This document shows, piece by piece, positions 381-29,835 of a stretch of 30,477 nucleotides of DNA (within the stretch, counting starts at the first letter, position 1; each line of letters begins with the position of its first letter). This stretch comes from a virus, in IMG/VR virus record IMGVR_UViG_3300009088_000027, positions 1 through 30,477 of that record; one strand, 5' to 3'. The notes under the pieces are model-generated. The model made no database searches. It had not been told where the DNA came from and worked only from the letters and a program-made list of their open reading frames with translations. A program made the translations under genes and the position numbers.

Positions 381-710
381 ATGGCAGACGATCAGGCTAG
401 GCAGAAGACCCCGGCCAGGGCAGTGGCTGAAGATGTATATACTATCATGTTTAGTGCATTGACAGCCGGACTACACATAGAAGGCATTGTAGATAAGATG
501 GAGATAGAGAGGATAAAAAGCAGGATAGAGACCAGGATTAACTCATTCCAGATAACAAGCGTCGCACTAGACAGAATAGAGCAAGACGACGCAATCACCA
601 GCTTTCTACTCGACATGGGGGCGAAGGTCGAGATGGATGAGTATTTTCACATATCACTTCAAGGCACTCAGGAGAAAGCAGCGCCAACTGGTAAATTCGA
701 TGAAGAGTGA
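381..710 (+). CDS. Hypothetical protein; 5' part of a gene interrupted by a MITE-like element
   Basis: A 109-aa frame. I chose ATG 381 because GGAAAGGG (363-370) lies at ribosome-binding distance; the frame also opens at a GTG at 321 without such a site. The protein is helical and acidic with no recognised domain. Its last coding bases and stop (708-710) lie inside the left terminal inverted repeat of the element at 689-1093, so the C-terminal residues after APT are element-encoded. If the element and one CCAAC copy are removed, this frame joins in phase to the frame ending at 1423, giving a 210-codon gene. I therefore read this as the 5' fragment of a broken gene, though the fragment could still be translated. 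Confidence 0.6.
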   Translation: MADDQARQKTPARAVAEDVYTIMFSALTAGLHIEGIVDKMEIERIKSRIETRINSFQITSVALDRIEQDDAITSFLLDMGAKVEMDEYFHISLQGTQEKAAPTGKFDEE

Positions 711-756
711 GCACTTTTTAGCGCGAAGGGTGGGATTTTGGCGTGAAGGGTGAGCA
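689..756 (+). repeat. Left terminal inverted repeat with three GCGYGAAGGGTG-type modules
   Basis: The left arm contains three related modules centred on GAAGGGTG or GAAGAGTG, with GAAG at 702, 725 and 745 (spacings 23 and 20 bp). The first copy is degenerate in this arm but intact in the right arm. Spaced direct repeats inside a terminal repeat resemble multiple protein-binding sites, for example for a transposase; that role is inferred. Confidence 0.75.
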
Positions 757-1423
757 ACCAAGCCACCGGCCATCTGAGAAGCCGCTCCAGAGGCGGATCG
801 TTCTCTCTTGTTTCTGTAAATTCGACGCTCGTTTTGCTGCCTTCGCACGTTCTCTCCTGCAAAGACTTGAACCAGATCCGGCGAAGCTGGCTGTTTTGAA
901 TCCAGGTTTGGACGAAAAGCTACGGGCTTCTGTCTACAATTCAGGCAATTCAGGCTCGGGATTTACAAAAACGAAAATGACGAACGGGCTTCTGGAGCCA
1001 TATTACCCAACAGCAATTGATGAGCTGCTCACCCTTCACGCCAAAATCCCACCCTTCGCGCTAAAAAGTGCTCACCCTTCGCGCCATTTACCACCAACGC
1101 TCAAGGATGCATTCCGTTTGTGGGTGTTTGAGTTGGTAATGTCGCGGCCAGGCGCACCACGCAGGCGCAAGCATCAGCATAAATTAAAGCGTAATTATCA
1201 ATTCCCTAATTGCGTCTGGTTCGAGCACAACGACGAAAACAAAGTCACCTGCTGGGTGACGAATGTAGTGGGGAACAAGCCTATCTATGGAGTGGTCCGC
1301 TACTTCGTTGACGGTGATCAACGCGCATGGGTGGAGAGCGATACATTCGACCAGGACAAAGATACGGCGATCAGGTGGTGTAGAGAGAAGATGAAGGCAC
1401 TGGCAGAGGAGCAAAGTAAATGA
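743..1423 (+). CDS. Chimeric frame: element-derived N-terminus plus 3' part of the interrupted gene
   Basis: The frame opens at a GTG at 743 inside the left repeat arm, runs through the MITE-like element and ends at 1423. Residues 1 to about 117 are therefore translated element sequence and are probably not a natural protein. The genuine part starts after the right target duplication (residues TLKDAFRLWVF, from 1097) and may be translated from ATG 1139 as a 94-aa protein beginning MSRPGAPRRRK. That part has a very basic N-terminus and a beta-rich region with several Trp residues (CVWFEH, CWVTN, RAWVES, IRWCRE). I recognise no family. The stop overlaps the next start (ATGA at 1420-1423). The stop coordinate is secure; the start is not. 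Confidence 0.5.
   Translation: MKGEQPSHRPSEKPLQRRIVLSCFCKFDARFAAFARSLLQRLEPDPAKLAVLNPGLDEKLRASVYNSGNSGSGFTKTKMTNGLLEPYYPTAIDELLTLHAKIPPFALKSAHPSRHLPPTLKDAFRLWVFELVMSRPGAPRRRKHQHKLKRNYQFPNCVWFEHNDENKVTCWVTNVVGNKPIYGVVRYFVDGDQRAWVESDTFDQDKDTAIRWCREKMKALAEEQSK
1026..1093 (-). repeat. Right terminal inverted repeat of the MITE-like element
   Basis: Reverse-complement copy of the arm at 689-756. It holds the same three modules in opposite orientation; the outermost module here reads GCGCGAAGGGTGAGCAC on the minus strand and is the least degenerate. Confidence 0.75.
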
Positions 1424-1856: not shown

Positions 1857-3032
1857 ATGAGCATCTTAGCAATCATTGATCTAGACACCAACCGCGAACG
1901 TGGCCAGTCTGAGAACATCATGGTAGTTAATAATAGCGAACGCTCCAGCCTCGCCCGTGAGTATGCTAACCATTTTAGTAGACGCGAACAAACCAGCGCA
2001 TTCTTTACGAAAATGTTTGATGTAGACCTGGTCAAGCATGATGTGATCGAGGGCCAGGCTAAAGACCTGCTAGAGCGCATAGAGGCACGAGGGGCACAGG
2101 TAGTCTATCTGACAAATCGACCACATACTATGCAAGAAGCTACAGAGAAATGGCTTATCGATCAAGATGTGTATTACAAGAGTTATTTCAAGAATTACGG
2201 CACTGGCGAGATTGCGCCAGATGGCAAACCTGACACTGGCGACCGCTTCATCAAAACAACCACGTGGAAGGCGCGCGAGGTACAGCGCATCATTACAGAA
2301 GTTGAGACCAGTCTGAACGAGAAACTTACCTCAGTACTCTTTGTGGACGACGAAGAGGCCAACCGCGCAGCCGTGGCCGAGATTGGCGATCCACGCATCC
2401 TAATACGCTGCAGCCTGGAGGATGCGGCAACACATGACTTCCAGAGATATGAGGTTGAGCAGGATACTCAACCATTCTTGAAGCGGTTGAGAGAGTTAGC
2501 CAACATCCTGGAGATGCACGAAGCATTCGAGGCACAAGATAAGTGCCAGTTAACTATCACCAGTCCGGTGGTCCCCGGACAGGACACGACAGGGCAACAT
2601 ACCAGTGTCATGATTGAGAGCTGGCGGGCTACAGCATACGCACCTGACACTGACCCTAACCTACGCTACTACCGCTATAACGAGCTATATCCACAGCGCA
2701 ACGAACTTTCGGAAATAGAGCAGATTATTGCTTTGCAGGTATGTTGCAATAGCGATGGGAAAGTAGTTTCGGTCAAAATGGCGAAGTCAGGGCCTGCGCT
2801 TTCATTGATCAATAAATTGGAGGAAGTATTCGACGAACCAGAGAAGGCACAAGCCTATGCCGACACGTGGGTAGCGCACGCCATTGAAGAGTTCGGCTAT
2901 GTGGAGGTTGCAAAGGCGCAACGAGGGATGCAGTTGCTAGGCAAACCCGCCCTTGATGCATACATAGCTCACCTCCGTCAGAAAAGCGAGGAGATCAGGG
3001 CGGCTCTCAGAGGCGGTAAAGCCGATGAGTAG
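1857..3032 (+). CDS. HAD-superfamily phosphatase-like protein with unknown C-terminal domain
   Basis: A 391-aa protein; GGGGAGATATAGGA precedes ATG 1857. The N-terminal ~200 residues show HAD-superfamily motifs in order: motif I IIDLD (Asp8, Asp10), motif II VVYLTNRP (Thr86), a lysine region near residues 133-138, and motif IV SVLFVDDEEAN (Asp164, Asp165). HAD enzymes use the first Asp as nucleophile for phosphoryl transfer, and phage members often act on nucleotides or polynucleotide 3' ends. The substrate cannot be read here. Motif I is slightly unusual: the two Asp residues are present but the following DxT context is DLDTN. Residues 210-391 are helical, end in a Lys/Arg-rich tail, and are unrecognised. 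The gene overlaps the next by 8 bp. Confidence 0.75.
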   Translation: MSILAIIDLDTNRERGQSENIMVVNNSERSSLAREYANHFSRREQTSAFFTKMFDVDLVKHDVIEGQAKDLLERIEARGAQVVYLTNRPHTMQEATEKWLIDQDVYYKSYFKNYGTGEIAPDGKPDTGDRFIKTTTWKAREVQRIITEVETSLNEKLTSVLFVDDEEANRAAVAEIGDPRILIRCSLEDAATHDFQRYEVEQDTQPFLKRLRELANILEMHEAFEAQDKCQLTITSPVVPGQDTTGQHTSVMIESWRATAYAPDTDPNLRYYRYNELYPQRNELSEIEQIIALQVCCNSDGKVVSVKMAKSGPALSLINKLEEVFDEPEKAQAYADTWVAHAIEEFGYVEVAKAQRGMQLLGKPALDAYIAHLRQKSEEIRAALRGGKADE

Positions 3033-8292: not shown

Positions 8293-8327
8293 TTTGAGTA
8301 GCAGATTGAAAGGAGTCAGTTAGTAAA

Positions 8328-8966
8328 ATGTCACATATCGTTAAGGCTGCGGAATTAAGTTTCCCAGAGTGGTGCCAGTCACTAACCAGGAGAACAGATT
8401 GGGGCATTGTGGATACCGAGACAACGGGGTTTAAAGGCGAGGTAATTGACCTGGCTATTGTGTCTCACGACGGACGGACGTTATTTGATCAGTTGATCAA
8501 GCCGACGATCCCGGTAGAAGCTGGGGCGCAGGAAGTTCACCATATATCTGAGACAATGTTGCAAAGCGAGAAGACACTAGCAGAGCACTGGCCAGAGATT
8601 GAGCCAGTACTACAGGGGAAACTGATCATCACGTACAATGCTAAGTTCGATATGCAACGCATTGTGCAGAGCTGTCGGGCCAACGGCATCGCTTCACGAT
8701 CAAACATTTGGATCTGCGCGATGGATAGCTATGCAAGATATTACAAAGCCCCAGACAAATATGGGCGGCCAGGTGGATGGCAGAAATTAGAAAAGGCATG
8801 CGAGCAGCAAGGAGTTAAGAAGCCAGATGGGCAGCAGCATAGGGCAGCATTCGATGCTTTATGGACCTGGCGGCTGATTATAAAGTGCGCGGAGCTGGGC
8901 GACCAGGTCGCGACATATAAGACAAAAATAGCCGGTGGTAGTCAAGCCACAAGAGAGATGATATAA
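8328..8966 (+). CDS. DnaQ-like DEDDh 3'-5' exonuclease
   Basis: A 212-aa protein with the three exonuclease motifs of the DEDDh (DnaQ/RNase T) superfamily: Exo I DTETTG (Asp29, Glu31), Exo II NAKFD (Asp108) and Exo III H171-RAAF-D176. The acidic residues bind two metal ions that hydrolyse nucleotides from 3' ends. Length is normal for a stand-alone exonuclease domain, with no fused polymerase or helicase. AAAGGAGTCAGTTAGTAAA precedes ATG 8328. Position after the Rep-like gene suggests proofreading or end processing in phage replication, or RNA degradation. It is the last gene before a set of terminator hairpins. Confidence 0.9.
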   Translation: MSHIVKAAELSFPEWCQSLTRRTDWGIVDTETTGFKGEVIDLAIVSHDGRTLFDQLIKPTIPVEAGAQEVHHISETMLQSEKTLAEHWPEIEPVLQGKLIITYNAKFDMQRIVQSCRANGIASRSNIWICAMDSYARYYKAPDKYGRPGGWQKLEKACEQQGVKKPDGQQHRAAFDALWTWRLIIKCAELGDQVATYKTKIAGGSQATREMI

Positions 8967-9053
8967 TTCTGGTAGGACTGCTACAGAAGCGACCTTTATT
9001 ACCCTTACCACATACCATCCCAAAGAAATGGCTTCTAGGACCGCCGCACGAGA

Positions 9054-9102
9054 GAAAAGGAACCTGCGCACGAAATACAGACCAGTGCGCAGGTTCCTTT
9101 TC
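9054..9102. terminator. Bidirectional rho-independent terminator
   Basis: An 18-bp perfect stem (9054-9071 with 9085-9102), 13-nt loop, GC-rich core CCTGCGCAC, with A-rich sequence on the left arm and CCTTTTC on the right. It can terminate transcription from either side. Confidence 0.85.
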
Positions 9103-9241
9103 ATTATAATTGTTTTATGTTATTATTCAAATGTAGAACAAGAAGAAGTCGTTTCAACTTACTATCTCCTTTACTACTACAGAACGCATACGAAACGTAC
9201 CCTTTTACTTTTGTGAACGAGAGAACACAAGGCAAGCAAAA

Positions 9242-9280
9242 AACAAGAAGCCGCCCAAACAGACCGGGCGGCTTCTTGTT
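9242..9280. terminator. Bidirectional rho-independent terminator
   Basis: A 15-bp perfect stem (9242-9256 with 9266-9280), 9-nt loop, core GCCGCCC/GGGCGGC, A-tract before and CTTCTTGTT after. Confidence 0.8.
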
Positions 9281-9316
9281 ATTGTGGTAAAGGTCGAACA
9301 GGTAAACAGCTAAAAT

Positions 9317-9339
9317 TACAAGCTTTATTTAAGCTTGTA
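9317..9339. other. Weak AT-rich hairpin
   Basis: TACAAGCTT (9317-9325) pairs with AAGCTTGTA (9331-9339) across a 5-nt loop. It lies between two stronger terminators. Its role is unclear. Confidence 0.45.
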
Positions 9340-9366
9340 TATACTCAGTATAACACCAGCAAAAAC

Positions 9367-9404
9367 AAGAAGCGCTTGCAGATAGCTATCTGCAAGCGCT
9401 TCTT
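9367..9404. terminator. 38-bp perfect palindrome, terminator
   Basis: The sequence is fully self-complementary around position 9385.5, with core GCGCTTGCAGATA and flanks AAGAA/TTCTT. A-rich sequence precedes it and a T-rich stretch follows, so it can terminate in both directions, including for the minus-strand gene ending at 9491. Confidence 0.7.
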
Positions 9405-9490
9405 ATTCTTAACCTGCTGAGATAATATGCCTTAAATATTAAACCATACTGGTTAGAAAGGGAATTCTGTGACCAGTATATCATACATAT

Positions 9491-9781
9491 TTAAACAAAC
9501 ATATAGGGTGCAGCCTCGTGCAGCTCGCGGTACTTGCCATAGATCTTACGGCCATCAACCCTAGTATTAATGATCTGCAGTGTTCGCCCATTGTGATCCA
9601 GGACCGACACGATCAGGCCATCCGCAACATCTTTGATAATATAGTCGGGCATCGCAGGGCCTGCGGTAAAAAGCAAGAGTTCGCCACGCCTGGCGCGTGA
9701 AGTTACGGCGGTCGCTTTCTTCTTTTTGCGCATGTGCGTGGCGGGTGACTTGCCGATCAGGGACTTTCGCGGCAGCGGCAT
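9491..9781 (-). CDS. Small basic hypothetical protein
   Basis: A 96-aa minus-strand protein. I chose ATG 9781 because AGAGGTGT lies about 9 nt upstream on that strand; the frame extends to 9823 without a site. The N-terminal 35 residues are very basic (PLPRKSLIGK, MRKKKKA), and the C-terminal 60 look like a small beta barrel (DYIIKDVADGLIVSVLDH, TLQIINTRVDG). A basic tail plus small beta domain suggests nucleic-acid binding, which is inferred. It is one of only two minus-strand genes here, and it diverges from the tail glycosidase gene. Confidence 0.6.
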   Translation of the reverse strand: MPLPRKSLIGKSPATHMRKKKKATAVTSRARRGELLLFTAGPAMPDYIIKDVADGLIVSVLDHNGRTLQIINTRVDGRKIYGKYRELHEAAPYMFV

Positions 9782-14195: not shown

Positions 14196-15203
14196 ATGCA
14201 AGAGTTAACACCTTTCGAGGGTTCTCACAAACCGTCAGTAGGACAAATAGCCGACTATTACGCAAGGCAACATGTTTTTATGGAAGAGCAGCAAGGCAAA
14301 TCTTATAACACCAGGCGCAGATATAAAAATGATCTAGAAATATTCAGCCAGTATCTTGAAGAGGCTGGGCTCTATTTGCCTGAAGAAGAATTACACAATA
14401 ATCCACAATCATGGGGTCAGATTTCCTATGGTCTGGTTGCAGGCTTCGTACAATGGCAACTTAAAAAGGGGTATGCTATCGGTAGCTGTAACATTAGATT
14501 ATTCACCGTGAGAAAATTTGCAAAGCTTGCATTTAAGGCTGGGGCTGTTAACAACGAAACATGTCAGCTTATTAACAGTATCAAAGGTATTAGCCCGACA
14601 GCAGGACGTAACATTGATAGAGATCGGCAAACAAAGAGGTGCGGCAGGAAGAAGGCAACACCAATTTTCCTTTCATCTGAACAGGTTACACAACTCAAGC
14701 AGCAGCCTGAGACGCCACAGGGATATAGAAACCTTTTGCTCATATGTCTGCTTGTTGATCTTGGTCTCAGGTGTGGCGAGGTTGGACGTGCAGGTGAGAT
14801 TGAGAAGCTTACTGCAGAGAGCATTACTTTCAGTAACAGGACTATCAGATTTTATCGGGAGAAGGTTGATAAGTGGCAAACACATAGGTTGTCTCACGAC
14901 ACTATAGAGGCTGCGCGAAAGTACTTACCAACCATTCAGGCTAATGGGCCGCTATTCTATGGGTATAAAGGTAAGGCTCTATGCAACAATACGATTAATT
15001 ACATTATTAAACAGTCAGGCAAAAAGATAGGGATAGCAAACCTATCTCCGCATGATCTAAGGCACACATGGGCTACTAATGCAGCAAGAAATGGTACACC
15101 GCTACATGCGCTTAAAGAGGCAGGTGGATGGACTTCAACGTCTACAGCCCTGTCTTATCTTGAAGCCAATAAGATAGCCAATGATGGGGTGGTGCTGGGA
15201 TAA
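14196..15203 (+). CDS. int: Tyrosine recombinase (phage integrase)
   Basis: A 335-aa protein with the two-domain layout of phage tyrosine integrases. Residues 15-130 form a SAM-like core-binding domain (YNTRRRYKNDLEIFSQYLEE). The catalytic domain runs about 155-330. All catalytic elements are visible: Arg192 in LGLRCGEV, a beta-hairpin Lys in YREKVDKWQ, His286 and Arg289 in HDLRHTWA, Trp312 in GGWTS, and nucleophile Tyr321 in SYLEANK. It should cut and rejoin DNA through a 3'-phosphotyrosine to integrate or excise the element. AAAGAGGTATAAG precedes the ATG. Unusually it lies inside the virion gene order, between fibre-type genes and the portal. Confidence 0.92.
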   Translation: MQELTPFEGSHKPSVGQIADYYARQHVFMEEQQGKSYNTRRRYKNDLEIFSQYLEEAGLYLPEEELHNNPQSWGQISYGLVAGFVQWQLKKGYAIGSCNIRLFTVRKFAKLAFKAGAVNNETCQLINSIKGISPTAGRNIDRDRQTKRCGRKKATPIFLSSEQVTQLKQQPETPQGYRNLLLICLLVDLGLRCGEVGRAGEIEKLTAESITFSNRTIRFYREKVDKWQTHRLSHDTIEAARKYLPTIQANGPLFYGYKGKALCNNTINYIIKQSGKKIGIANLSPHDLRHTWATNAARNGTPLHALKEAGGWTSTSTALSYLEANKIANDGVVLG

Positions 15204-15464: not shown

Positions 15465-15809
15465 ATGCTCCAGCAAGAGCGCAACATGATGCAATGGGTA
15501 GAGAACATAGCCAGGCACGCCGAGAAGATTGGTGTGCCAAATGATGAGATTTACGAATTCACCACCAGGGCGGAACAGATCGTTATTGTGCCCAGACCGC
15601 TTGTAACAGTTGGGTTAGATCTGTCTACCGATGAGTTACACCGCACACGTACATGTAGTGGAACTGCGTGGAAGGTGCTGGACTATCCACTAATTGAGCT
15701 TGAGTACAGTAGACAGGACTGCATTAAGATCGTTGAGGATGCAAGGCTACAAGTGCAAGGAGAGAAGCAAGAGCAGTGTAGAGAGATCATTATGAAGGGT
15801 GGAGGATGA
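15465..15809 (+). CDS. Hypothetical protein, probably missing its 5' end
   Basis: From ATG 15465 the frame gives 114 aa (ARHAEKIGVPNDEIYEF, VGLDLSTDELHRTRTC, a C-terminal helix ending KQEQCREIIMKGGG). No good ribosome-binding site precedes this ATG. The frame is open upstream to 15302, directly after a TAG, and that extra stretch reads like real protein (YDYWLHNATQDNKYFQQA, IHYAQANGINLIETHNQNID) but has no ATG, GTG or TTG start. I infer that the gene was cut at its 5' end at the integrase-side hairpin. No domain is recognised. The portal gene begins 4 bp after its stop. Confidence 0.55.
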   Translation: MLQQERNMMQWVENIARHAEKIGVPNDEIYEFTTRAEQIVIVPRPLVTVGLDLSTDELHRTRTCSGTAWKVLDYPLIELEYSRQDCIKIVEDARLQVQGEKQEQCREIIMKGGG

Positions 15810-15813
15810 GGGC

Positions 15814-17391
15814 ATGAGTAGAAGACGAAGATACAAAGCGCAGCGCATACGCGAGCAGGACCAACAGAAGCGTGTAACAGAGCAGATCGATCCTACCGTT
15901 ATGTCAGGGCCTACAGGAACGCAGGAAGACTGGTATTGGTCCCGTTACACCAACGGTACTGATGAAGATTTCTTATGGCGAAGACTTAGCGACCAATTTT
16001 ATCTAAAAGATGTAATACCTTCAACTTATTTAGAAATACATAATCAATGTTATGAAGCTTACCAGGCCAACCCCCTCGCCTTCGCCATCATAGAACTAAC
16101 AACTAGCTTTGTGTTAGGCGAAGGTATCACAGTGGCCGCAAAAAACAAAAGAGTGCAGCAGGTAATAGATGCTTTCTGGCAAAATCCAGAGAACCACATG
16201 GACGAGCGAACTTACAGCCTATGCACTGAGCTAGCTTTGTACGGAGAGCAATTCATCCACTTCTTTGTCAATCAGTATGATGGTAGCGTGGTCATTCGCC
16301 AGATAGATCCTTCCTTAATCGATCAGATCGAGACAGACCCCGAAGACGTTGAGAAACCTTTGCGATACCATAGAAGACCAATAGCCCAGATTATGAGCGC
16401 CACCTCCGGCGATCCACCCAACTTCGACCCGACCCAGGAGCAAGACACACAAGGCCAGTGGTTCACGGCCAGAGATGAAGTGCTCCAGATTGCCATCAAC
16501 AAAGTCAGCAACGCCAAGCGTGGTAAAAGTGACCTGGCTACCCTTTTGCCGTGGCTCAGAAGATACAAAGATTGGCTTACTGACAGGGTGCGTATCAACA
16601 AATTCAAGGCCGCGTTTCTGTGGGATGTCCAACTCACAGGCGCAGATAAAAAGACCATTGACCGCAAGAAGATGGAGTACACCTATCCACCAGAACCCGG
16701 AAGCGTGATCATCCATAACGAGGCGGAGAAGTGGAGCGCGGTCGAACCTAACATCAACGCCGGGGATGCTAGCGAAGATGGGAGGCAGATCAAGCTCATG
16801 GTAGCAGTTGGCGCAACCCTGCCAGAACACTATCTAGCCGACGGTGACAACGGCAATCGAGCAACTGCGTCAGAAATGAGCCTCCCGACATTGCTCAAGT
16901 TCAAGAGGCGGCAGCGCATACTCAAACATATGCTTACTCTTATACTTGATCGGGTGATAGCCGAAGCGTTGAAGGCCGGGAAGTTGGGGCCTCGGATAGA
17001 TACCAGCTATGACATCACTTTCCCAGAGATCGATAGCGGTGAGCACCAGACACTGGCCCAGGCGATGAACTTCCTTGTGCCTGCACTACAGACCGCTGCG
17101 GCTCAAGGTTGGGTATCCAGAGAGACTGCTATGCGTATCATGTTCGAGTATTGCGGCGAGGAGGTGGATATTCCCGATGAGATAAGTAAAATCATGGCAC
17201 AACAACAACAGCCTGCGCAACAAGCAGGGCCAGGAGCACCACCACCAGGAGCACCACCTAATAACGGCAATGCACAGGCAGACCCACAATCACAGATGCC
17301 GCTCAGTCAGCAACCGTCAGACTTGCCGCCGGGGTTGAACGGCTACGGATCAGGAGTTCATCCAACAGTTTTGTATGATCGGGGGTATTAG
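15814..17391 (+). CDS. Phage portal protein
   Basis: A 525-aa protein. ATG 15814 is preceded by GGTGGAGGATGAGGGC; a GTG five codons upstream overlaps the preceding gene. The sequence fits portal proteins: an N-terminal basic segment, then ANPLAFAIIELTTSFVLGEG (about residues 86-105), EQFIHFFVNQYDGSVVIRQIDP, a central RVRINKFKAAFLWDV helix, the loop region GATLPEHYLADGDNGNRATA, and a long clip/stem helix FKRRQRILKHMLTLILDRVI. The last 70 residues are Pro/Gln/Gly-rich and probably disordered. Portals form the dodecameric head vertex through which DNA enters. It heads the head-gene block, although no terminase gene precedes it here. Confidence 0.88.
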   Translation: MSRRRRYKAQRIREQDQQKRVTEQIDPTVMSGPTGTQEDWYWSRYTNGTDEDFLWRRLSDQFYLKDVIPSTYLEIHNQCYEAYQANPLAFAIIELTTSFVLGEGITVAAKNKRVQQVIDAFWQNPENHMDERTYSLCTELALYGEQFIHFFVNQYDGSVVIRQIDPSLIDQIETDPEDVEKPLRYHRRPIAQIMSATSGDPPNFDPTQEQDTQGQWFTARDEVLQIAINKVSNAKRGKSDLATLLPWLRRYKDWLTDRVRINKFKAAFLWDVQLTGADKKTIDRKKMEYTYPPEPGSVIIHNEAEKWSAVEPNINAGDASEDGRQIKLMVAVGATLPEHYLADGDNGNRATASEMSLPTLLKFKRRQRILKHMLTLILDRVIAEALKAGKLGPRIDTSYDITFPEIDSGEHQTLAQAMNFLVPALQTAAAQGWVSRETAMRIMFEYCGEEVDIPDEISKIMAQQQQPAQQAGPGAPPPGAPPNNGNAQADPQSQMPLSQQPSDLPPGLNGYGSGVHPTVLYDRGY

Positions 17392-18133: not shown

Positions 18134-18982
18134 ATGGGGGAGTTTGATCAAATTATTGAAGCAATGCTACCAGAGCCAACACTATCACCACCGGAGCCAG
18201 TTCACCCGGTTCCACAAGGCGGCAACATTCCACAGATGAACCTGGCAGGGGTTGATGGGTATCCTTTCAACGTAGCCAGTGGCTATGCACGGCAACCTAT
18301 GCCTGATCCCGGCAAACCAGCACCATACGATCCAGTGTTAAGCGGCTCGCCGGAGTGCGCAGGATACGACATGGCCAACCCTGCACCAATGCCGCAGAAC
18401 CTGGCAGGGGTTGATGGTATGCCGACTCCAGGTTACATGGCAGATCAGCAGACAGGGACGTGGAAGCGCAATGTAGGCGGGGATTATGGCATGTCGGTTG
18501 GCGTGGATTGCACGATCAAGCCATACGATCTGACAGAGCCAGGCATCAATTATTCTATCGGTGGCGAGTTCGAGCCTGATCCGATGATGCCCGACCTGGA
18601 GGACTACAATAAGCCAATGGGCCTGGATATTCATAATCCCATCCAGACAGGCAACCTTTTCACGCCTGATCCTGTGTTAGCAGACTTGACTCAGTACGAT
18701 GTGACTGGCGGCATTGACATCATTGCACGACAGCCAACAGACCCGGACCCATCCGTACCTGACTTGCAACAGCCACAGCTTACTCAAGATGTTCATATGC
18801 AGGAGCGCCCCGGCGACATGGACGATGATGCTATCGACATCGTAAATGCAGACCCAACTCACAAACTTGATGATGGCGCATCTTACATGCAAGCATTTCT
18901 CGATCCAGATGGCATGAATAATTCCCGACGTAGAAAGTCAGTGCTGCGTGATAGCGGTCTGAAAACAGTTGGGGATGCATAA
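18134..18982 (+). CDS. Acidic Pro-rich repeat protein upstream of the prohead protease
   Basis: A 282-aa protein. ATG 18134 is chosen because GAGGAGGAGG precedes it; the frame opens at 18095 without such a site. It is strongly acidic and Pro/Asp/Met-rich with almost no predicted regular structure. NLAGVDGYP and NLAGVDGMP are one repeat pair. A second repeat, PDP-x3-PDL (or ADL) followed by Y and DI, occurs three times around residues 160-235. The C-terminus turns basic (NNSRRRKSVLRDS). Location and TAATG overlap with the protease/capsid gene suggest a co-translated head protein such as an internal, scaffold-like or surface protein. No family is recognised. Confidence 0.65.
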   Translation: MGEFDQIIEAMLPEPTLSPPEPVHPVPQGGNIPQMNLAGVDGYPFNVASGYARQPMPDPGKPAPYDPVLSGSPECAGYDMANPAPMPQNLAGVDGMPTPGYMADQQTGTWKRNVGGDYGMSVGVDCTIKPYDLTEPGINYSIGGEFEPDPMMPDLEDYNKPMGLDIHNPIQTGNLFTPDPVLADLTQYDVTGGIDIIARQPTDPDPSVPDLQQPQLTQDVHMQERPGDMDDDAIDIVNADPTHKLDDGASYMQAFLDPDGMNNSRRRKSVLRDSGLKTVGDA

Positions 18983-21429
18983 TGATACAGCCTATTCCGA
19001 TGTCCTACAACACACCCACCAGTAGCACTCAGAATATTGGCGATAGCAACGGCCAGGATATCATGGAGCAAGCCAAACAAGCCCATGAAGAGAAATGGCC
19101 GCATGATAAGCGTGTGGCCTATCACCAGGCACATCCCGAAAATTTCGCGGGTGAAGGCATGTCATTTCCTATCGAGGATGCTACTGATGTAAAGCATGCG
19201 GCGCAGCTCCACGGCCAGTCACACGATGCAGACAAGGTCAAAGCGAAGATCATCAAAATTGCCACGGAGATGAAGCTTGATCAGGCACTACCAGATGAGT
19301 GGAAGTTGACGCCTGGAGCACAGAAAACAGGGCCAGTTAAGGAGGCTCAAATACAGATTGAGCCACGTATTACTGAGTCACTGGATGCTGGCCAGGCTGG
19401 GCATGATGTAAGAGTGACGGTCATACAAGGCGGAACATCGATCAATGGCTACGCCTACGATAATGCAGCGCTCCAACAGATAACCAGAATGATCGAAGGG
19501 GCCCAGGCTTACGCCGATCATGGCAGAAGTGCAGCGGACGAGGCGACCCGATCAGTGCGCGACATCGTTGGCTTTTACCACGATGCCGCATTCGTGTCAG
19601 CCAGCGGAGCACAACCAGCAAGGGTTGATGCCACGCTGCACATCTTTGATGCAGCCGATTGGCTGTGGAAGATCATTCACGAGAGTGTGCTGCTAGGCAA
19701 GCCTAATCTAATAGGGTTGTCCATTGATATATTCGGCCAGTGGCAGCAAGAGAACAATTCAAAGAAGGTCACGAATGTAAAGCAGCTTAACAGTTGCGAC
19801 ATTGTGACCAGGCCGAGCGCAGGCGGCTCCGTCCAGCGCATATTACACGACCTGCCCTCTAACAAGAGCGAGCAACTACAAGGAGGAAACACCAGCATGG
19901 AGGAACTTAACACTACTACTACACCGCAGAGCGATCCACCGGCACAGCCGCAGATAACACAGACACCACCACCAGCGCCTGCCACTCAGCAAATACAGGA
20001 ACAGACTCAGCCATCATCAACTATGCTTGAGCAGCATACGCGCATGATGGAACAATTGCAGGGCCTGGAGGCGCAGCGCGTTGAGGTCGAGAAGTTGATG
20101 CAGCAGGCCAAGATGGGCAATGCTCAGTTGATGCTTGAACGCAAGTTGCACGAGAGCATTTTACCTGCTGCTATCAAGGGACAACTCAAGGAGCGCTTTA
20201 CTGGGCGCATCTTCGAGGAGAGCGAGCTGGATAACGAGATGATCAGCGCGCTAAACGTCATGGCGCAATTAGCCAGAGATGGCATTGTCCGAGGTCACTC
20301 CTATGAGAAAAGTGAAATCAGCGGGCAGGTTACGGAGGCCGAGAAGGTTCAAGCAGCCTTCGATAGAATGTTCGACCTGGATATCGATACCACCAAGTTG
20401 GGCAATATCAGGGGTTTTGGTGGCGTCAGAGAGGCATATCAACGGGTCACAGGCGATCCTTCTTTATATGGCGGCATCAGCAGTAATACTAGCCTCGGCA
20501 ATATTCGCGTGAGTGAGAGCGCTCCAATGGCGCGTATCACTGAGGCTGATACCACAACGGCTACTTTCTCTTACCTGCTTGGCACCAGCATGAATAAGCG
20601 CCTGCTAAAAGACTATCAGGCGTGGCCTGCTGAGTGGCAAAAATTTGTAACGATTGTTCCAATCCGCGATTTTAAACAGCAAACTCGCGTGCGGTTGGGC
20701 GCATTCGCATCGCTGTCAACCGTGGCAGAGGATAGCGCCTACACCACGCAGACGCTAACTGATAGCGCGGCTACATATGTGCCAACCAAGCGCGGCAACC
20801 TGGTTACTGTGTCACGCGAGACAATCATCAATGACGACCTGCAGAGCATCAAGCAGATCCCCACTAAGCTCGCGGTGGCGGCAGCTTACACTCTGGCCGA
20901 GTTCGTCTACGCCTTCTTCCTGAACAATCCCAACATCTATGATGGTTCGGCCCTGTTCTTGACAGGAGCGCCACACAGCAATCTTGGCACAACTGCACTA
21001 AGCAGCGCGGCGATCCAGACAGGCGTAACCGCTATGCGTGAGCAAACAAACTTTGCTAGCAAAAGGCTTGGGTTGCGCCCACGGTTCTTAATTGTTCCAC
21101 CCGAGCTAGAGTTCACGGCTATGGTGGTCACTAAGAGCGCGGGCGTGCCGGGAAGCAATAACAACGACATCAACCCGATGCTAGGGTATGTAACCCCGAT
21201 TGTGTCGCCACAGTTAACGAGCACGACACAGTGGTTCTTGAGTGCTGATCCACGTGAAATCGACACTATCGAAATTGGCTTTGTGGGTGGACAGTGTAAT
21301 CCTGCTTTATTCATTCAGGACAGTCCCCTATTAGGGCTCAACTTCTCAACTGACGCAATCTCTTATAAAATTAGGCATGAATACGGAGGTTGTGTAACAG
21401 ACTACAGAGGATTATACCGAGGTATATAG
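18982..21429 (+). CDS. Prohead protease-major capsid protein fusion
   Basis: An 815-aa protein whose ATG overlaps the preceding stop (TAATG). Residues about 135-295 resemble prohead maturation proteases: GTSINGYAYDNAALQQI, YADHGRSA with candidate catalytic His180, then KPNLIGLSIDIFGQW with candidate Ser247, and LNSCDIVTRPSAGG. Residues 306-345 are a Pro/Gln/Thr-rich linker, 340-400 a coiled coil like a capsid delta or scaffold domain, and about 520-815 an HK97-type capsid region (RLGAFASLSTVAEDSAYT, RGNLVTVSRETIINDDLQ, C-terminal YKIRHEYGGCVTDYRG). Fused protease-capsid proteins are known in tailed phages. Here the protein should cleave itself during head maturation. An internal start (19897) probably yields capsid protein alone. 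Confidence 0.85.
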   Translation: MIQPIPMSYNTPTSSTQNIGDSNGQDIMEQAKQAHEEKWPHDKRVAYHQAHPENFAGEGMSFPIEDATDVKHAAQLHGQSHDADKVKAKIIKIATEMKLDQALPDEWKLTPGAQKTGPVKEAQIQIEPRITESLDAGQAGHDVRVTVIQGGTSINGYAYDNAALQQITRMIEGAQAYADHGRSAADEATRSVRDIVGFYHDAAFVSASGAQPARVDATLHIFDAADWLWKIIHESVLLGKPNLIGLSIDIFGQWQQENNSKKVTNVKQLNSCDIVTRPSAGGSVQRILHDLPSNKSEQLQGGNTSMEELNTTTTPQSDPPAQPQITQTPPPAPATQQIQEQTQPSSTMLEQHTRMMEQLQGLEAQRVEVEKLMQQAKMGNAQLMLERKLHESILPAAIKGQLKERFTGRIFEESELDNEMISALNVMAQLARDGIVRGHSYEKSEISGQVTEAEKVQAAFDRMFDLDIDTTKLGNIRGFGGVREAYQRVTGDPSLYGGISSNTSLGNIRVSESAPMARITEADTTTATFSYLLGTSMNKRLLKDYQAWPAEWQKFVTIVPIRDFKQQTRVRLGAFASLSTVAEDSAYTTQTLTDSAATYVPTKRGNLVTVSRETIINDDLQSIKQIPTKLAVAAAYTLAEFVYAFFLNNPNIYDGSALFLTGAPHSNLGTTALSSAAIQTGVTAMREQTNFASKRLGLRPRFLIVPPELEFTAMVVTKSAGVPGSNNNDINPMLGYVTPIVSPQLTSTTQWFLSADPREIDTIEIGFVGGQCNPALFIQDSPLLGLNFSTDAISYKIRHEYGGCVTDYRGLYRGI
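19897..21429 (+). CDS. Major capsid protein from an internal in-frame start
   Basis: Inside the fusion gene, AAGGAGG (19880-19886) lies 10 nt before ATG 19897, exactly in frame (codon 306). Translation from here gives a 510-aa protein beginning MEELNTTTT, comprising the linker, coiled-coil delta-like region and complete capsid fold, without the protease. A perfect Shine-Dalgarno at the domain boundary is unlikely to be accidental. It would supply many capsid subunits per protease, comparable to the nested scaffold start in lambda C/Nu3. The capsid identity is well supported; use of the internal start is inferred. Confidence 0.65.
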   Translation: MEELNTTTTPQSDPPAQPQITQTPPPAPATQQIQEQTQPSSTMLEQHTRMMEQLQGLEAQRVEVEKLMQQAKMGNAQLMLERKLHESILPAAIKGQLKERFTGRIFEESELDNEMISALNVMAQLARDGIVRGHSYEKSEISGQVTEAEKVQAAFDRMFDLDIDTTKLGNIRGFGGVREAYQRVTGDPSLYGGISSNTSLGNIRVSESAPMARITEADTTTATFSYLLGTSMNKRLLKDYQAWPAEWQKFVTIVPIRDFKQQTRVRLGAFASLSTVAEDSAYTTQTLTDSAATYVPTKRGNLVTVSRETIINDDLQSIKQIPTKLAVAAAYTLAEFVYAFFLNNPNIYDGSALFLTGAPHSNLGTTALSSAAIQTGVTAMREQTNFASKRLGLRPRFLIVPPELEFTAMVVTKSAGVPGSNNNDINPMLGYVTPIVSPQLTSTTQWFLSADPREIDTIEIGFVGGQCNPALFIQDSPLLGLNFSTDAISYKIRHEYGGCVTDYRGLYRGI

Positions 21430-21539: not shown

Positions 21540-22382
21540 TCAGAATAGCGGAGGTTGGTCAGCTTGCTGTTTTGCAAGCTTGTTGGCAAGTCTTGTTGCC
21601 TTCTGCTTCGCTATAGACTCAGGCGTGCGTGTTTTGCCAAGGTGGGAAGCACTCAGCTTAGCAACATGCTCAGGTGCAAGCTTTCTACCACGATGGAAGG
21701 CTGCGGTTTTAGCAATAGCTTCAGGAGATCGATTTTTACCAGGCTTACCACGTTTAGCAGCACTCATCTTAGCCTTATGCTCAGTGGTAAGCTTTTTACC
21801 TGTATTAGCAGCACTTAATTTTGCACGCTGCTCAGGAGTAAGTTTTCTACCACGAAGAGAGGCTGCTCGTTTCTCTACAAGTTCAGGCGATTGCTTACCA
21901 GTTGACTTACCACGTTTAGCAGCACTCAGTTTAGCTCTTGTTTCAGGGGAACGATGTTGGCCTGTATTGGCTATACGTGCAGCCTCAGTAGCTTTAGAAA
22001 CACTAACTCTTAGTTTTGCAAGATACTCCGGTGTCCTTTCCATGCCAAGAGTGCTACCAGCCACACGGGCAATATTATATTGCGGGTTAAGCCCATCAAT
22101 ATAACGCTGCTCTACCGAAAGAAGATCTTCAACGTGCTTAACGAGATCAATAACAACAAAACAAAACTTGTCAGGTCCATAAAGGTCATAGGCACGTTGC
22201 AGATGGGAATTAACATGTTTACCTGTTCTCAAAGCACTAAGATGATCACTCTTTCGTCGAAGGAGATCCACAGACGAGCCAACATAAAAATTGCTATTGG
22301 ACATATTAACAATGGCATATATGCCAGGGGTGGAGGGAACAACATTCACTTGAGAGGTGTCGTGAGGTACAATGATATCCAT
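21540..22382 (-). CDS. GIY-YIG homing endonuclease with NUMOD3-type repeats
   Basis: A 280-aa minus-strand protein. I chose ATG 22382 because AAGGAG lies 12 nt upstream; a TTG at 22394 abuts that site and cannot use it. The GIY-YIG nuclease domain occupies residues 18-100: GIYAIVNMSNSNFYVGSS, catalytic Arg42 or Arg43 in DLLRRKSDH, and metal-binding Glu91 in SVEQRYIDGLNPQYN. Residues 105-265 contain about six NUMOD3-like units of RSPE-x-RAKLSAAKRGK type, which bind DNA as a modular array. Such enzymes are selfish elements that cleave an allele lacking them. It lies antisense between capsid and surface-protein genes, in neither of which it interrupts a reading frame. Confidence 0.9.
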   Translation of the reverse strand: MDIIVPHDTSQVNVVPSTPGIYAIVNMSNSNFYVGSSVDLLRRKSDHLSALRTGKHVNSHLQRAYDLYGPDKFCFVVIDLVKHVEDLLSVEQRYIDGLNPQYNIARVAGSTLGMERTPEYLAKLRVSVSKATEAARIANTGQHRSPETRAKLSAAKRGKSTGKQSPELVEKRAASLRGRKLTPEQRAKLSAANTGKKLTTEHKAKMSAAKRGKPGKNRSPEAIAKTAAFHRGRKLAPEHVAKLSASHLGKTRTPESIAKQKATRLANKLAKQQADQPPLF

Positions 22383-22536
22383 AGTGAGGGTCAACTCCTT
22401 ACTATCACGCTCCCGGTTGTTTCAGCAATGCGGGGGCAAAACATTATTACCTCATCAGTATACCACACATCAGGTTTAAAGCCATTATTCATGTACTAAT
22501 CTACTATAGAACAGTAGACATTTTAAGGAGGCAATA

Positions 22537-28202: not shown

Positions 28203-28679
28203 ATGAATACAAGCGGAATTATTAGCAACGTGGTTTTATTATTATTGCCAATCTTTATAGCTGTTTCACTTTACTGCTATAAAGCGATCGAACAAAACCT
28301 GCCTGAGAAGCAAAGAGCAGCGCTGACAGAGATTACTCGAATGGCAGTCTATAGCGTAGAGCAGCAGTATAGCAGCGTGGACAGCGAGCACAAGAAGAAT
28401 GCCGCGGTGAACATGGTAGGCAACATATTCAGGGCGTTCAAGTTGCCAATTCCTGAGATGTATATTATTAGCGCAGCCATCGAGGCCTGCATACTGGAGA
28501 TGAATATGTTTCAGAATGGCAGTGGCGGGGATGATCTCCTACCAATATTCAACCCGCGCTCGCCACTACCGTTTCATCCAATGACGCCAGCACCACCACC
28601 TACGCAGCTCCCGCCATCGCAACCGAGCACGCCACTACCAGCGGGACCAACTACAGGAGGAGACAATCATGCTTCTTAG
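28203..28679 (+). CDS. Holin, LLH family
   Basis: A 158-aa protein with one N-terminal transmembrane helix (VVLLLLPIFIAVSLYCYKAI). The soluble helical part follows the LLH holin pattern: ALTEITRMAVYSVEQQYSS, EHKKNAAVNMVGNIFRAF, then IPEMYIISAAIEACILEMN. The C-terminal 45 residues are Pro-rich and disordered. LLH holins assemble in the membrane and release endolysin or trigger lysis. GAGGGAGTTTAGTAGGG precedes ATG 28203. No endolysin gene is visible next to it, and it lies unusually between hub and adaptor genes. It overlaps the next gene by 11 bp. Confidence 0.8.
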   Translation: MNTSGIISNVVLLLLPIFIAVSLYCYKAIEQNLPEKQRAALTEITRMAVYSVEQQYSSVDSEHKKNAAVNMVGNIFRAFKLPIPEMYIISAAIEACILEMNMFQNGSGGDDLLPIFNPRSPLPFHPMTPAPPPTQLPPSQPSTPLPAGPTTGGDNHAS

Positions 28680-29835
28680 CGATGTCGAAACGATGGTACG
28701 TCAAGATCTGTTCGACACTGGCGCGACGAGGTGGCAGACAAGCGACATCGATAGAGCCATCGATAAAGCAGTAGACAGGTATAGCGCCTACTATCCTAAC
28801 GTGGCCTTTACGGACATGCAGATGCAGCCTTATCAAAGGACTTACCCATACCCAACACCATGGAATGCTAGCTACCCGGTCATGTGGATTGAGAAAGTAC
28901 TTTATCCGTTGCAGGTGTATGGCAGCGGGTACGCAGCACCCACATCAGCACCAAGCGCGGCTAAGACGGCAGGCGCAGGGTTAAGCTCAGGCGTTTATCA
29001 GTATCTCTGTACATATCTCACGCAGGGAGGCGAGACAACAGCAGGCGCAACTGTGAGCGTAACCACAACTACAGGAAATGACCAGGTCAGATTGACTACT
29101 ATACCAATCGGGCCAAGCCAACCATTGCAGCCAGGAATAGCGACCAACAATATTATCGGCAGAAACATTTACAGGACAAAGGTGGGAGCCAGTGTGTTCT
29201 TCCTTCTGACGGCGATCCAGGATAATACCAGCACTACGTATACAGATGCTACGGCTGATAGTAGTTTGACTGGCCAGCCATCTCCTCCCACGGTTAATAG
29301 TAGCGGAGTTATGATATGGCAGCCACAAGAGCGCGCTTTCTCGGAGTACTCCAATCTGTATGACTCAAATACCGCGCTTGCAGCAGGCGGCAACATGGGA
29401 GCAATGGGCGCGGTAGGGCGAACAGGCGCGGACCCGACAAACCTGACTTCGCCCAGCTTCACAATCAATATGAGCCCAACTGAGTTACCCAAGGATAACA
29501 CTCTGATAATGAGAGTGTTTTACGCCAACAAGCAGCAACTTGATAGTAGCGGGAGCACGATACCAGAGATCCACAGGGACATCATTGTACTGGGTGCGGT
29601 CGCTTATTGCATGGAGGCTTACCAGGTGCCGACCAACGATAACTTTGATTTTCAGGATGGGGGGCTGCGTGATCGTATAGATGATACCCAGATCCCCAAA
29701 AATTGGCTTGCAATGACACAGGTAAGGATGAAACAGTTCGAAGATAGACTTACCGAAATTAAACAACAGAGGGACTTCGCATCTTCATCTCGCGCCAACT
29801 GGGGCGATATACCGTATCGTTATACAAGATTGTAG
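28669..29835 (+). CDS. Head-tail adaptor-like protein with inserted Ig-like domain
   Basis: A 388-aa protein; AGGAGGAGACAATC precedes ATG 28669. Residues 1-80 (MLLSDVETMVRQDLFDTGA, WQTSDIDRAIDKAVDRYSAY) and 285-370 (HRDIIVLGAVAYCMEAYQV, VRMKQFEDRLTEIKQQ) form the helical halves of a gp6-like adaptor. Adaptors sit under the portal and join the tail. Residues about 95-200 are a beta-rich insert (GVYQYLCTYLTQGGETTAG, IGRNIYRTKVGASVFFLL, NTSTTYTDATADSSL) of Ig/fibronectin type, which phages often use for surface display. The adaptor fold with an Ig insert is inferred by eye. It ends the tail block before a gap with two hairpins. Confidence 0.6.
   Translation: MLLSDVETMVRQDLFDTGATRWQTSDIDRAIDKAVDRYSAYYPNVAFTDMQMQPYQRTYPYPTPWNASYPVMWIEKVLYPLQVYGSGYAAPTSAPSAAKTAGAGLSSGVYQYLCTYLTQGGETTAGATVSVTTTTGNDQVRLTTIPIGPSQPLQPGIATNNIIGRNIYRTKVGASVFFLLTAIQDNTSTTYTDATADSSLTGQPSPPTVNSSGVMIWQPQERAFSEYSNLYDSNTALAAGGNMGAMGAVGRTGADPTNLTSPSFTINMSPTELPKDNTLIMRVFYANKQQLDSSGSTIPEIHRDIIVLGAVAYCMEAYQVPTNDNFDFQDGGLRDRIDDTQIPKNWLAMTQVRMKQFEDRLTEIKQQRDFASSSRANWGDIPYRYTRL

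Follow-up and report, generated by a model that had tools for sequence, protein, structure and literature searches.

A 405-bp insert splitting an early phage gene is probably a Ktedonobacteria miniature transposon with putative TnsAB- and TnsC-like helpers

In a virus contig of 30,477 bases (the whole stretch analysed here, hereafter the window), a 405-bp segment at 689-1093 separates two reading frames that run on as one when it is taken out, raising the question of what the segment is, what machinery moved it and whether it serves the phage. A sequence-only reading had described it as a MITE-like insertion that either inactivated an early gene or created a regulated split of it. We find it probable, at roughly 0.8 and from sequence comparison, that the segment is a MITE of a Ktedonobacteria family that inserted into an early phage gene, with putative TnsAB- and TnsC-like helpers supplied in trans.

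The insert consists of two transposon ends of ~135 bp around a centre of ~136 bp, flanked on either side by CCAAC (Table 1). Its inverted arms match at 62 of 68 positions (91% complementary) and are perfect over the inner 50 bp; by comparison, the longest perfect inverted arm between 300 and 1500 averaged 9.9 bp, with a maximum of 15 bp, in 200 dinucleotide shuffles. For coding signal we used a codon-usage score whose table was built from 15 window ORFs, with off-frame and in-frame control stretches (2000 each) drawn from the same ORFs. By this measure the insert showed none, scoring negative in all six frames (-0.15 to -0.45), and a search of the window against Rfam gave no match at gathering score.

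Table 1. Positions of the split gene and the insert in the window, and of the autonomous elements in other loci
Feature	Locus	Position	Strand	Basis or detail
5' half of interrupted gene, 102 codons plus AC (ATG at 381, GGAAAGGG upstream)	window	381..688	+	codon score +0.27 bits per codon
Target-site duplication, left copy CCAAC	window	684..688	.	sequence
Left transposon end: TGGTAAAT, three internal repeats (~701-713, 721-735, 741-756)	window	689..823	+	36-end alignment
Left terminal inverted repeat, 68 bp	window	689..756	+	arm comparison
TGTAAAT of left end	window	815-821	+	starts at +127
Centre between ends, without a coding-scoring frame	window	824..959	.	six-frame codon scores
Right transposon end, same architecture as left	window	960..1093	-	36-end alignment
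TGTAAAT (reverse complement) of right end	window	961-967	-	starts at +127
Right terminal inverted repeat, 68 bp (repeats 1026-1043, 1046-1063, 1069-1086)	window	1026..1093	-	arm comparison
Target-site duplication, right copy CCAAC	window	1094..1098	.	sequence
3' half of interrupted gene	window	1099..1423	+	codon score +0.10 bits per codon
Autonomous element, 4855 bp	L115	5596-10450		ACTCG twice
Autonomous element, 4999 bp	L113	7322-12320		GGAAT twice; tnsAB broken
Autonomous candidate, 3821 bp	L120	8283-12103		CACAT twice; broken tnsAB plus tnsC

Removing the insert together with one CCAAC joins the two flanking frames into an ORF of 633 nt (210 codons plus stop) that reads ...KAAPTLKDAF... 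over the junction and whose TGA overlaps the ATG of the next gene (1420); left unjoined, the frame from 381 is closed by a stop within the left repeat, at 710. The codon scores agree with this reconstruction, which the sequence-only reading had proposed. Neither half's score was reached by any of the 2000 off-frame stretches, and against the in-frame controls the 5' half was ordinary (1485/2000 lower) and the 3' half low yet within range (202/2000 lower). Since both halves score as coding in the joined phase, the insert does not, and the frame is closed at 710, an intact gene most likely once stood at 381-1423 and was then interrupted, the in-frame stop truncating its product after 102 codons. 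If the flanks were instead two separate genes and the joined ORF a coincidence of frame, it would fit that the fused protein was not seen in any homologue; the shared coding phase and the exact 5-bp duplication around an element typical of the family described below make this very unlikely.

One piece of expected evidence did not materialise, namely a relative of the gene with an empty site. Neither half matched Pfam or PHROG at E 0.001, and several searches, one of them run without a positive control, found no homologue of the split gene and hence no empty site for the window insertion. A weak match of the joined protein to L142 (E 0.076) lay inside a seemingly unrelated protein and was rejected. 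Synteny gave no empty site either, because a comparison of the early phage genes near the insert with 30 loci (10 surrounding portal matches, 20 stretches of ~20 kb) yielded no relative at a threshold of E 0.001, and one of the early-gene product of 1857-3032 with viral_contigs yielded none either.

We also considered that the phage keeps the element because the split yields two useful products or because a cue drives excision. An ORF at 743-1423 (226 aa, GTG start) does stay open through the remaining element into the 3' half, and the region holds three terminator-like sites against a shuffle mean of 1.2 (sd 1.2), two of them inside the element at 878-890 (+) and 1033-1019 (-). Against these observations stand the insert's lack of coding signal in any frame and the count of promoter-like sites at scan threshold in 300-1500, which was 0 where shuffles averaged 1.1, and we regard a useful split as highly improbable. 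Truncation of the gene product follows from the stop at 710, and the regulated split finds no support.

Relatives of the insert were sought in genome contigs and in the class to which Ktedonobacter racemifer (genome G001) belongs, represented by 47 genomes. A repeat-motif pattern that matches the window three times returned three loci from the genome contigs, one of them a K. racemifer element whose repeats are identical over 79 bp; it has AGTGG at either end and encloses a GNAT acetyltransferase gene. L004 and L006 from that scan were dismissed as chance matches in GC-rich DNA after inspection of ~400 bp each. The end of the K. racemifer GNAT element matched 16 times in G001, the right end of the window insert matched in 11/47 genomes, and 22/47 contained matches to a sequence-only model built on 22 ends. 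With this model, each of three genomes gave at least 70 matches, counts that are lower bounds because 70 candidates were scored per genome. Furthermore, the 269-bp core between the 68-bp repeats is 78% identical to L061 over 240 bp (E 1.5e-51) and 66% identical to L029 over 253 bp (E 2.6e-25), and it also aligns with L062, L071 and L078 at 62-66%; the flanks differ among these copies, and L078 and L062 lack a duplication. Judged by its ends and core, the window insert is a member of a large Ktedonobacteria family with common ends.

When 36 ends (18 elements, the window insert among them) are aligned, they display a start resembling TGGTAAAT, three repeats of GAAGGGTGAGCA type and TGTAAAT, with fewer than three repeats in some ends (for example, the right end of L072 and the end at 7199 in L065). 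TGTAAAT falls at 115-140 in 29/36 ends, with +126 in L115, +127 in L113 and +127 in both window ends. As the common alignment extends to TGTAAAT, the transposon end measures ~135 bp per side, twice the repeat first reported; the 68-bp inverted repeat is present as described and forms only the outer part of that end. The window ends, which score 95.0 bits (left) and 94.6 bits (right) in model R1 and were both also in its building set, reach 72% identity to ends of non-autonomous elements (MITEs and cassettes) but only 44-53% to the L115 and L113 ends. The insert thus has what marks a prokaryotic MITE: 405 bp without a transposase gene, terminal inverted repeats with a target-site duplication, and several copies at unrelated sites (core homologues with different flanks), while the sharing of ends with an autonomous element lies in architecture (L115, L113), at only that low identity. 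The original proposal of a MITE-like insertion consequently holds in its arms, its paired CCAAC, its non-coding interior and its homologous copies in the host class.

The prediction that other copies with these ends would carry different 5-bp duplications was borne out. Exact 5-bp duplications flank 17 of the 22 paired elements, window included, while 5/22 have no duplication and none has one of 6-8 bp; permuting the right flanks 10,000 times gave a mean of 0.87 and a maximum of 7. Adding weaker pairs without a duplication (L062, L070, L076, L116, L119) brings the proportion to 17/27. These counts omit single-end loci and mixed pairs of different elements, both leave out L161 (ATATT, left end one base inward), and among the 22, both L074 elements and L120 were recognised partly through their duplication. 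One L074 element, at 14760-14897, is only 138 bp long, its ends nearly meeting between two copies of TTATC, and is perhaps the smallest family member.

A substitute for the missing empty site comes from a different insertion, that of a 399-bp sister MITE in K. racemifer (L029), which sits inside an IS605-type tnpB gene (Pfam OrfB_IS605). Its 300-bp joined site, with a single CCTGG, occurs uninterrupted in the same genome, three times at 100% and once at 99%. Likewise, the autonomous element of L113 lies in an IS6/IS240-type transposase gene whose joined site recurs at five places in the same genome (86-87% over ~295 bp).

Besides MITEs of ~400-500 bp, the family includes cassettes with one or two passenger genes between family ends. 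The passengers encode a GNAT protein (L032, L023), a glyoxalase-family protein (L025, L064 and L070, the last without a duplication), an alpha/beta hydrolase (L066), a MerR regulator plus an NmrA-like protein (L072) and a PQQ-repeat protein (L075). The L023 element holds further genes beside GNAT, and two of its ORFs presumably resemble IS110 and IS66 transposases.

Three further loci carry autonomous elements or a candidate for one (Table 1). In L115 the TnsAB-like fusion is intact (856 aa) and is accompanied by a TnsC-like ATPase and one small ORF; both L115 and L113 agree with the window family in the outer TAGTAAAT/TGGTAAAT, in repeat layout and in the placement of TGTAAAT. The end profile missed the ends of L120, which are assigned from its TGGTAAAT termini plus the duplication. 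TnsAB-like fusion ORFs of 844-883 aa occur in L112, L114, L116 and L117 as well, and one TnsB of the family matched in 13/47 genomes at E 1e-10; a search of one family TnsC against plasmids gave no match. Within the window, K. racemifer TnsA, TnsB and TnsC queries returned nothing convincing, the lowest E value (0.17) falling outside the insert.

Residues 275-729 of the L115 fusion match TnsB of a solved CRISPR-associated transposon (PDB 7svw, E 9.9e-12), and other TnsB chains in PDB match too, as expected of a TnsB-type DDE transposase. The N-terminal part is conserved in the family and weakly TnsA-like (Pfam Tn7_TnsA-like_N, E 0.17), and a profile of 7 such parts matched no TnsA in PDB. D462, D546 and E583, which we take to be the catalytic residues of the TnsB-like part, are invariant in 5 fusions. 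TnsA-type nucleases are expected to have a lysine in a PD...EAG-type stretch; the one within residues 107-131 of the L115 fusion has none, although K131 shortly after it is invariant in 5/5 sequences. The ATPase, encoded downstream of tnsAB, matches Pfam AAA_22 (E 2.2e-14), TniB weakly (E 0.007) and, in PDB, TnsC weakly (E 0.053).

These features bear on whether another transposase family, IS21-type IstA/IstB or an unseen IS, moved the MITE, the TnsAB elements being merely similar to it. IS21 elements have repeat-bearing ends and make 5-bp duplications, so that three repeats per end and the observed duplications would suit them too, and the modest identity between the window ends and those of L115 and L113 leaves room for a different helper. 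What makes this reading improbable, if less so than the two alternatives above, is that L115 and L113 have the same outer sequences, repeat layout, TGTAAAT position and 5-bp duplications as the family, that the best PDB match of the transposase is TnsB, and that the L115 ATPase (8306-9532) has no Pfam match up to E 1 to IstB (PF01695, presumably the IstB-type ATPase of IS21). We thus favour a TnsAB/TnsC-like helper for the window copy, although its exact helper was not found among these elements.

No TniQ, the target selector, was found with the likely helpers. Three L115 ORFs and two L113 ORFs had no Pfam match to TniQ up to E 1, L120 has space for tnsC and a broken tnsAB only, and PF06527 found no TniQ anywhere in G001 and G029, the two genomes that contain L113 and L115. 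Across the class, TniQ is present in 6/47 genomes, and it coexists with matching ends in G002, G027, G034, G035 and G046, so help in trans is possible there. In G002, L114 (7072-13286) has an operon of TniQ-type, TnsAB, TnsC and TniQ genes, its fusion 46% identical to that of L115 and its TniQ-type ORFs one above and one below the curated cut-off. A TniQ-bearing sister therefore exists; no family-type end was found around L114 at E 10 or at E 1. The autonomous elements share with Tn7-like transposons the repeat arrays in the ends, with their putative TnsB sites, and the 5-bp duplications, and the family appears to work like a Tn7-type mini-transposon system. TniQ/TnsD is called ubiquitous in the Tn7 branch in section 8 of one review (PMC10293859). 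With no TniQ in the elements or in the K. racemifer genome, we do not file the family as typical or strict-sense Tn7.

The phage itself points to the same bacterial class. The window portal protein has relatives in 25/47 genomes, with 60-71% identity in long matches, and the other structural proteins reach 42-62% among the best hits in the fetched loci; by these relatives, a Ktedonobacterium is the most likely host. The phage carries an integrase gene at 14196-15203, which suggests that it is temperate. For window 15799-17391 and 18982-21429, portal relatives mostly amount to one or two matches per genome, a distribution that may reflect a domesticated particle or prophages that are widespread, and the head gene resembles a fused protease and major head protein. 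Immediately after the major head gene, but on the other strand, 21540-22394 (-) encodes a GIY-YIG endonuclease with a NUMOD3 motif, a possible homing element.

Although the 405-bp element had no match in the phages collection, a search of viral contigs with four patterns, two of which returned nothing, led to L161 with one pattern and to L155 and L156 with another. L161 is a related phage contig (68% identity to window 28669-29835) with a 518-bp family member whose shortened ends are flanked by ATATT on both sides if the left end starts at AGTAAAT. The end model matched this member though it was absent from the model's building set. Two genes that overlap in the window have homologues on either side of this member, the second 38% identical over 98 aa. 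The ~1.95 kb between those homologues (L161 1647-3597) also holds an antibiotic-biosynthesis-monooxygenase-like gene. L156 has a relative of the window tail gene (44%) and a 31-bp single end (E 0.0036) that is weak alone; in L156 3748-6635, this end is accompanied by two further ORFs near structural genes, which we presume to be transposase-like and metallo-hydrolase-like. The L155 match lies inside coding sequence of another phage and was attributed to chance, a few chance matches being estimated for the pattern. By these comparisons, the window and L161 bring the number of phage contigs with a family member to at least two.

Combined, these results chart a probable course of events. A TnsAB-like protein in the host cell would bind the three repeats in each end and cut the element from a host replicon, and the same protein with a TnsC-like ATPase would paste it at a little-specified target. 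The phage would have been hit while inside a host supplying both proteins, and the insertion duplicated CCAAC (5 bp) and truncates the gene product after 102 codons. To our knowledge, transposons of this type are not expected to be excised precisely by their transposase, and an intact gene would likelier be regained by repair from an uninterrupted phage copy than by such excision.

Among known systems, Tn7 makes 5-bp target duplications, and mobile insertion cassettes carry a passenger gene between MITE-like ends and depend on a helper in trans. The cassettes of the window family follow the same plan; the known ones are tied to IS231-type helpers, whereas the likely helper here is TnsAB/TnsC-like. 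Prokaryotic MITEs as described in the available portions of PMC10969869 are, like the window family, short and transposase-free with terminal inverted repeats, target duplications and several copies, from which the family differs by its structured ends of ~135 bp with three repeats. Those portions mention Tn7 only as an attTn7 example and in one reference and contain no word starting with 'phage' ('bacteriophage' fell outside that check). The Tn3-derived TIMEs, according to the accessible part of PMC4133298, are likewise miniature, retain the termini that define a large transposon family, make 5- or 6-bp duplications and include derivatives with functional genes, as in the window family; their ends are 38-bp Tn3-family ends, as opposed to TnsB-type ones. 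With Tn7-like transposons, as far as the excerpts of PMC8649781 and PMC10293859 go, the family shares a TnsB-like transposase with an N-terminal part (only weakly TnsA-like here), an AAA+ partner (weakly TnsC-like here) and arrays of binding-site-like repeats in the ends (putative here). These excerpts present large elements with target selectors, of median lengths of 14-29 kb (PMC8649781), whereas TniQ/TnsD was not found in the family's autonomous elements, which measure ~5 kb, and the family's targets are scattered. No Tn7-type MITE was described among the titles and abstract starts listed in our literature search, whose coverage left out most subscription journals. Beyond what had been read from the insert, the present analysis adds that the insert belongs to a family, that this family probably has TnsAB/TnsC-like helpers that carry no TniQ themselves, and that it is abundant in one class and occurs in phage contigs.

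More tentatively, and at somewhat less than even odds, we propose that a TniQ-less TnsAB-TnsC offshoot that lost its target selector drives the Ktedonobacteria MITEs and the one- and two-gene cassettes (GNAT, glyoxalase, hydrolase and others), with phages as vehicles between cells and the split gene a snapshot of a jump from host to phage. If true, a TnsAB/TnsC-like family without TniQ would offer a simple natural system for target choice by the TnsB/TnsC pair alone, and a family that runs both miniature and passenger-gene elements would open a route to studying the spread of gene cassettes without integrons. The locus would also indicate that phages of a little-studied bacterial class pick up mini-transposons of their hosts.
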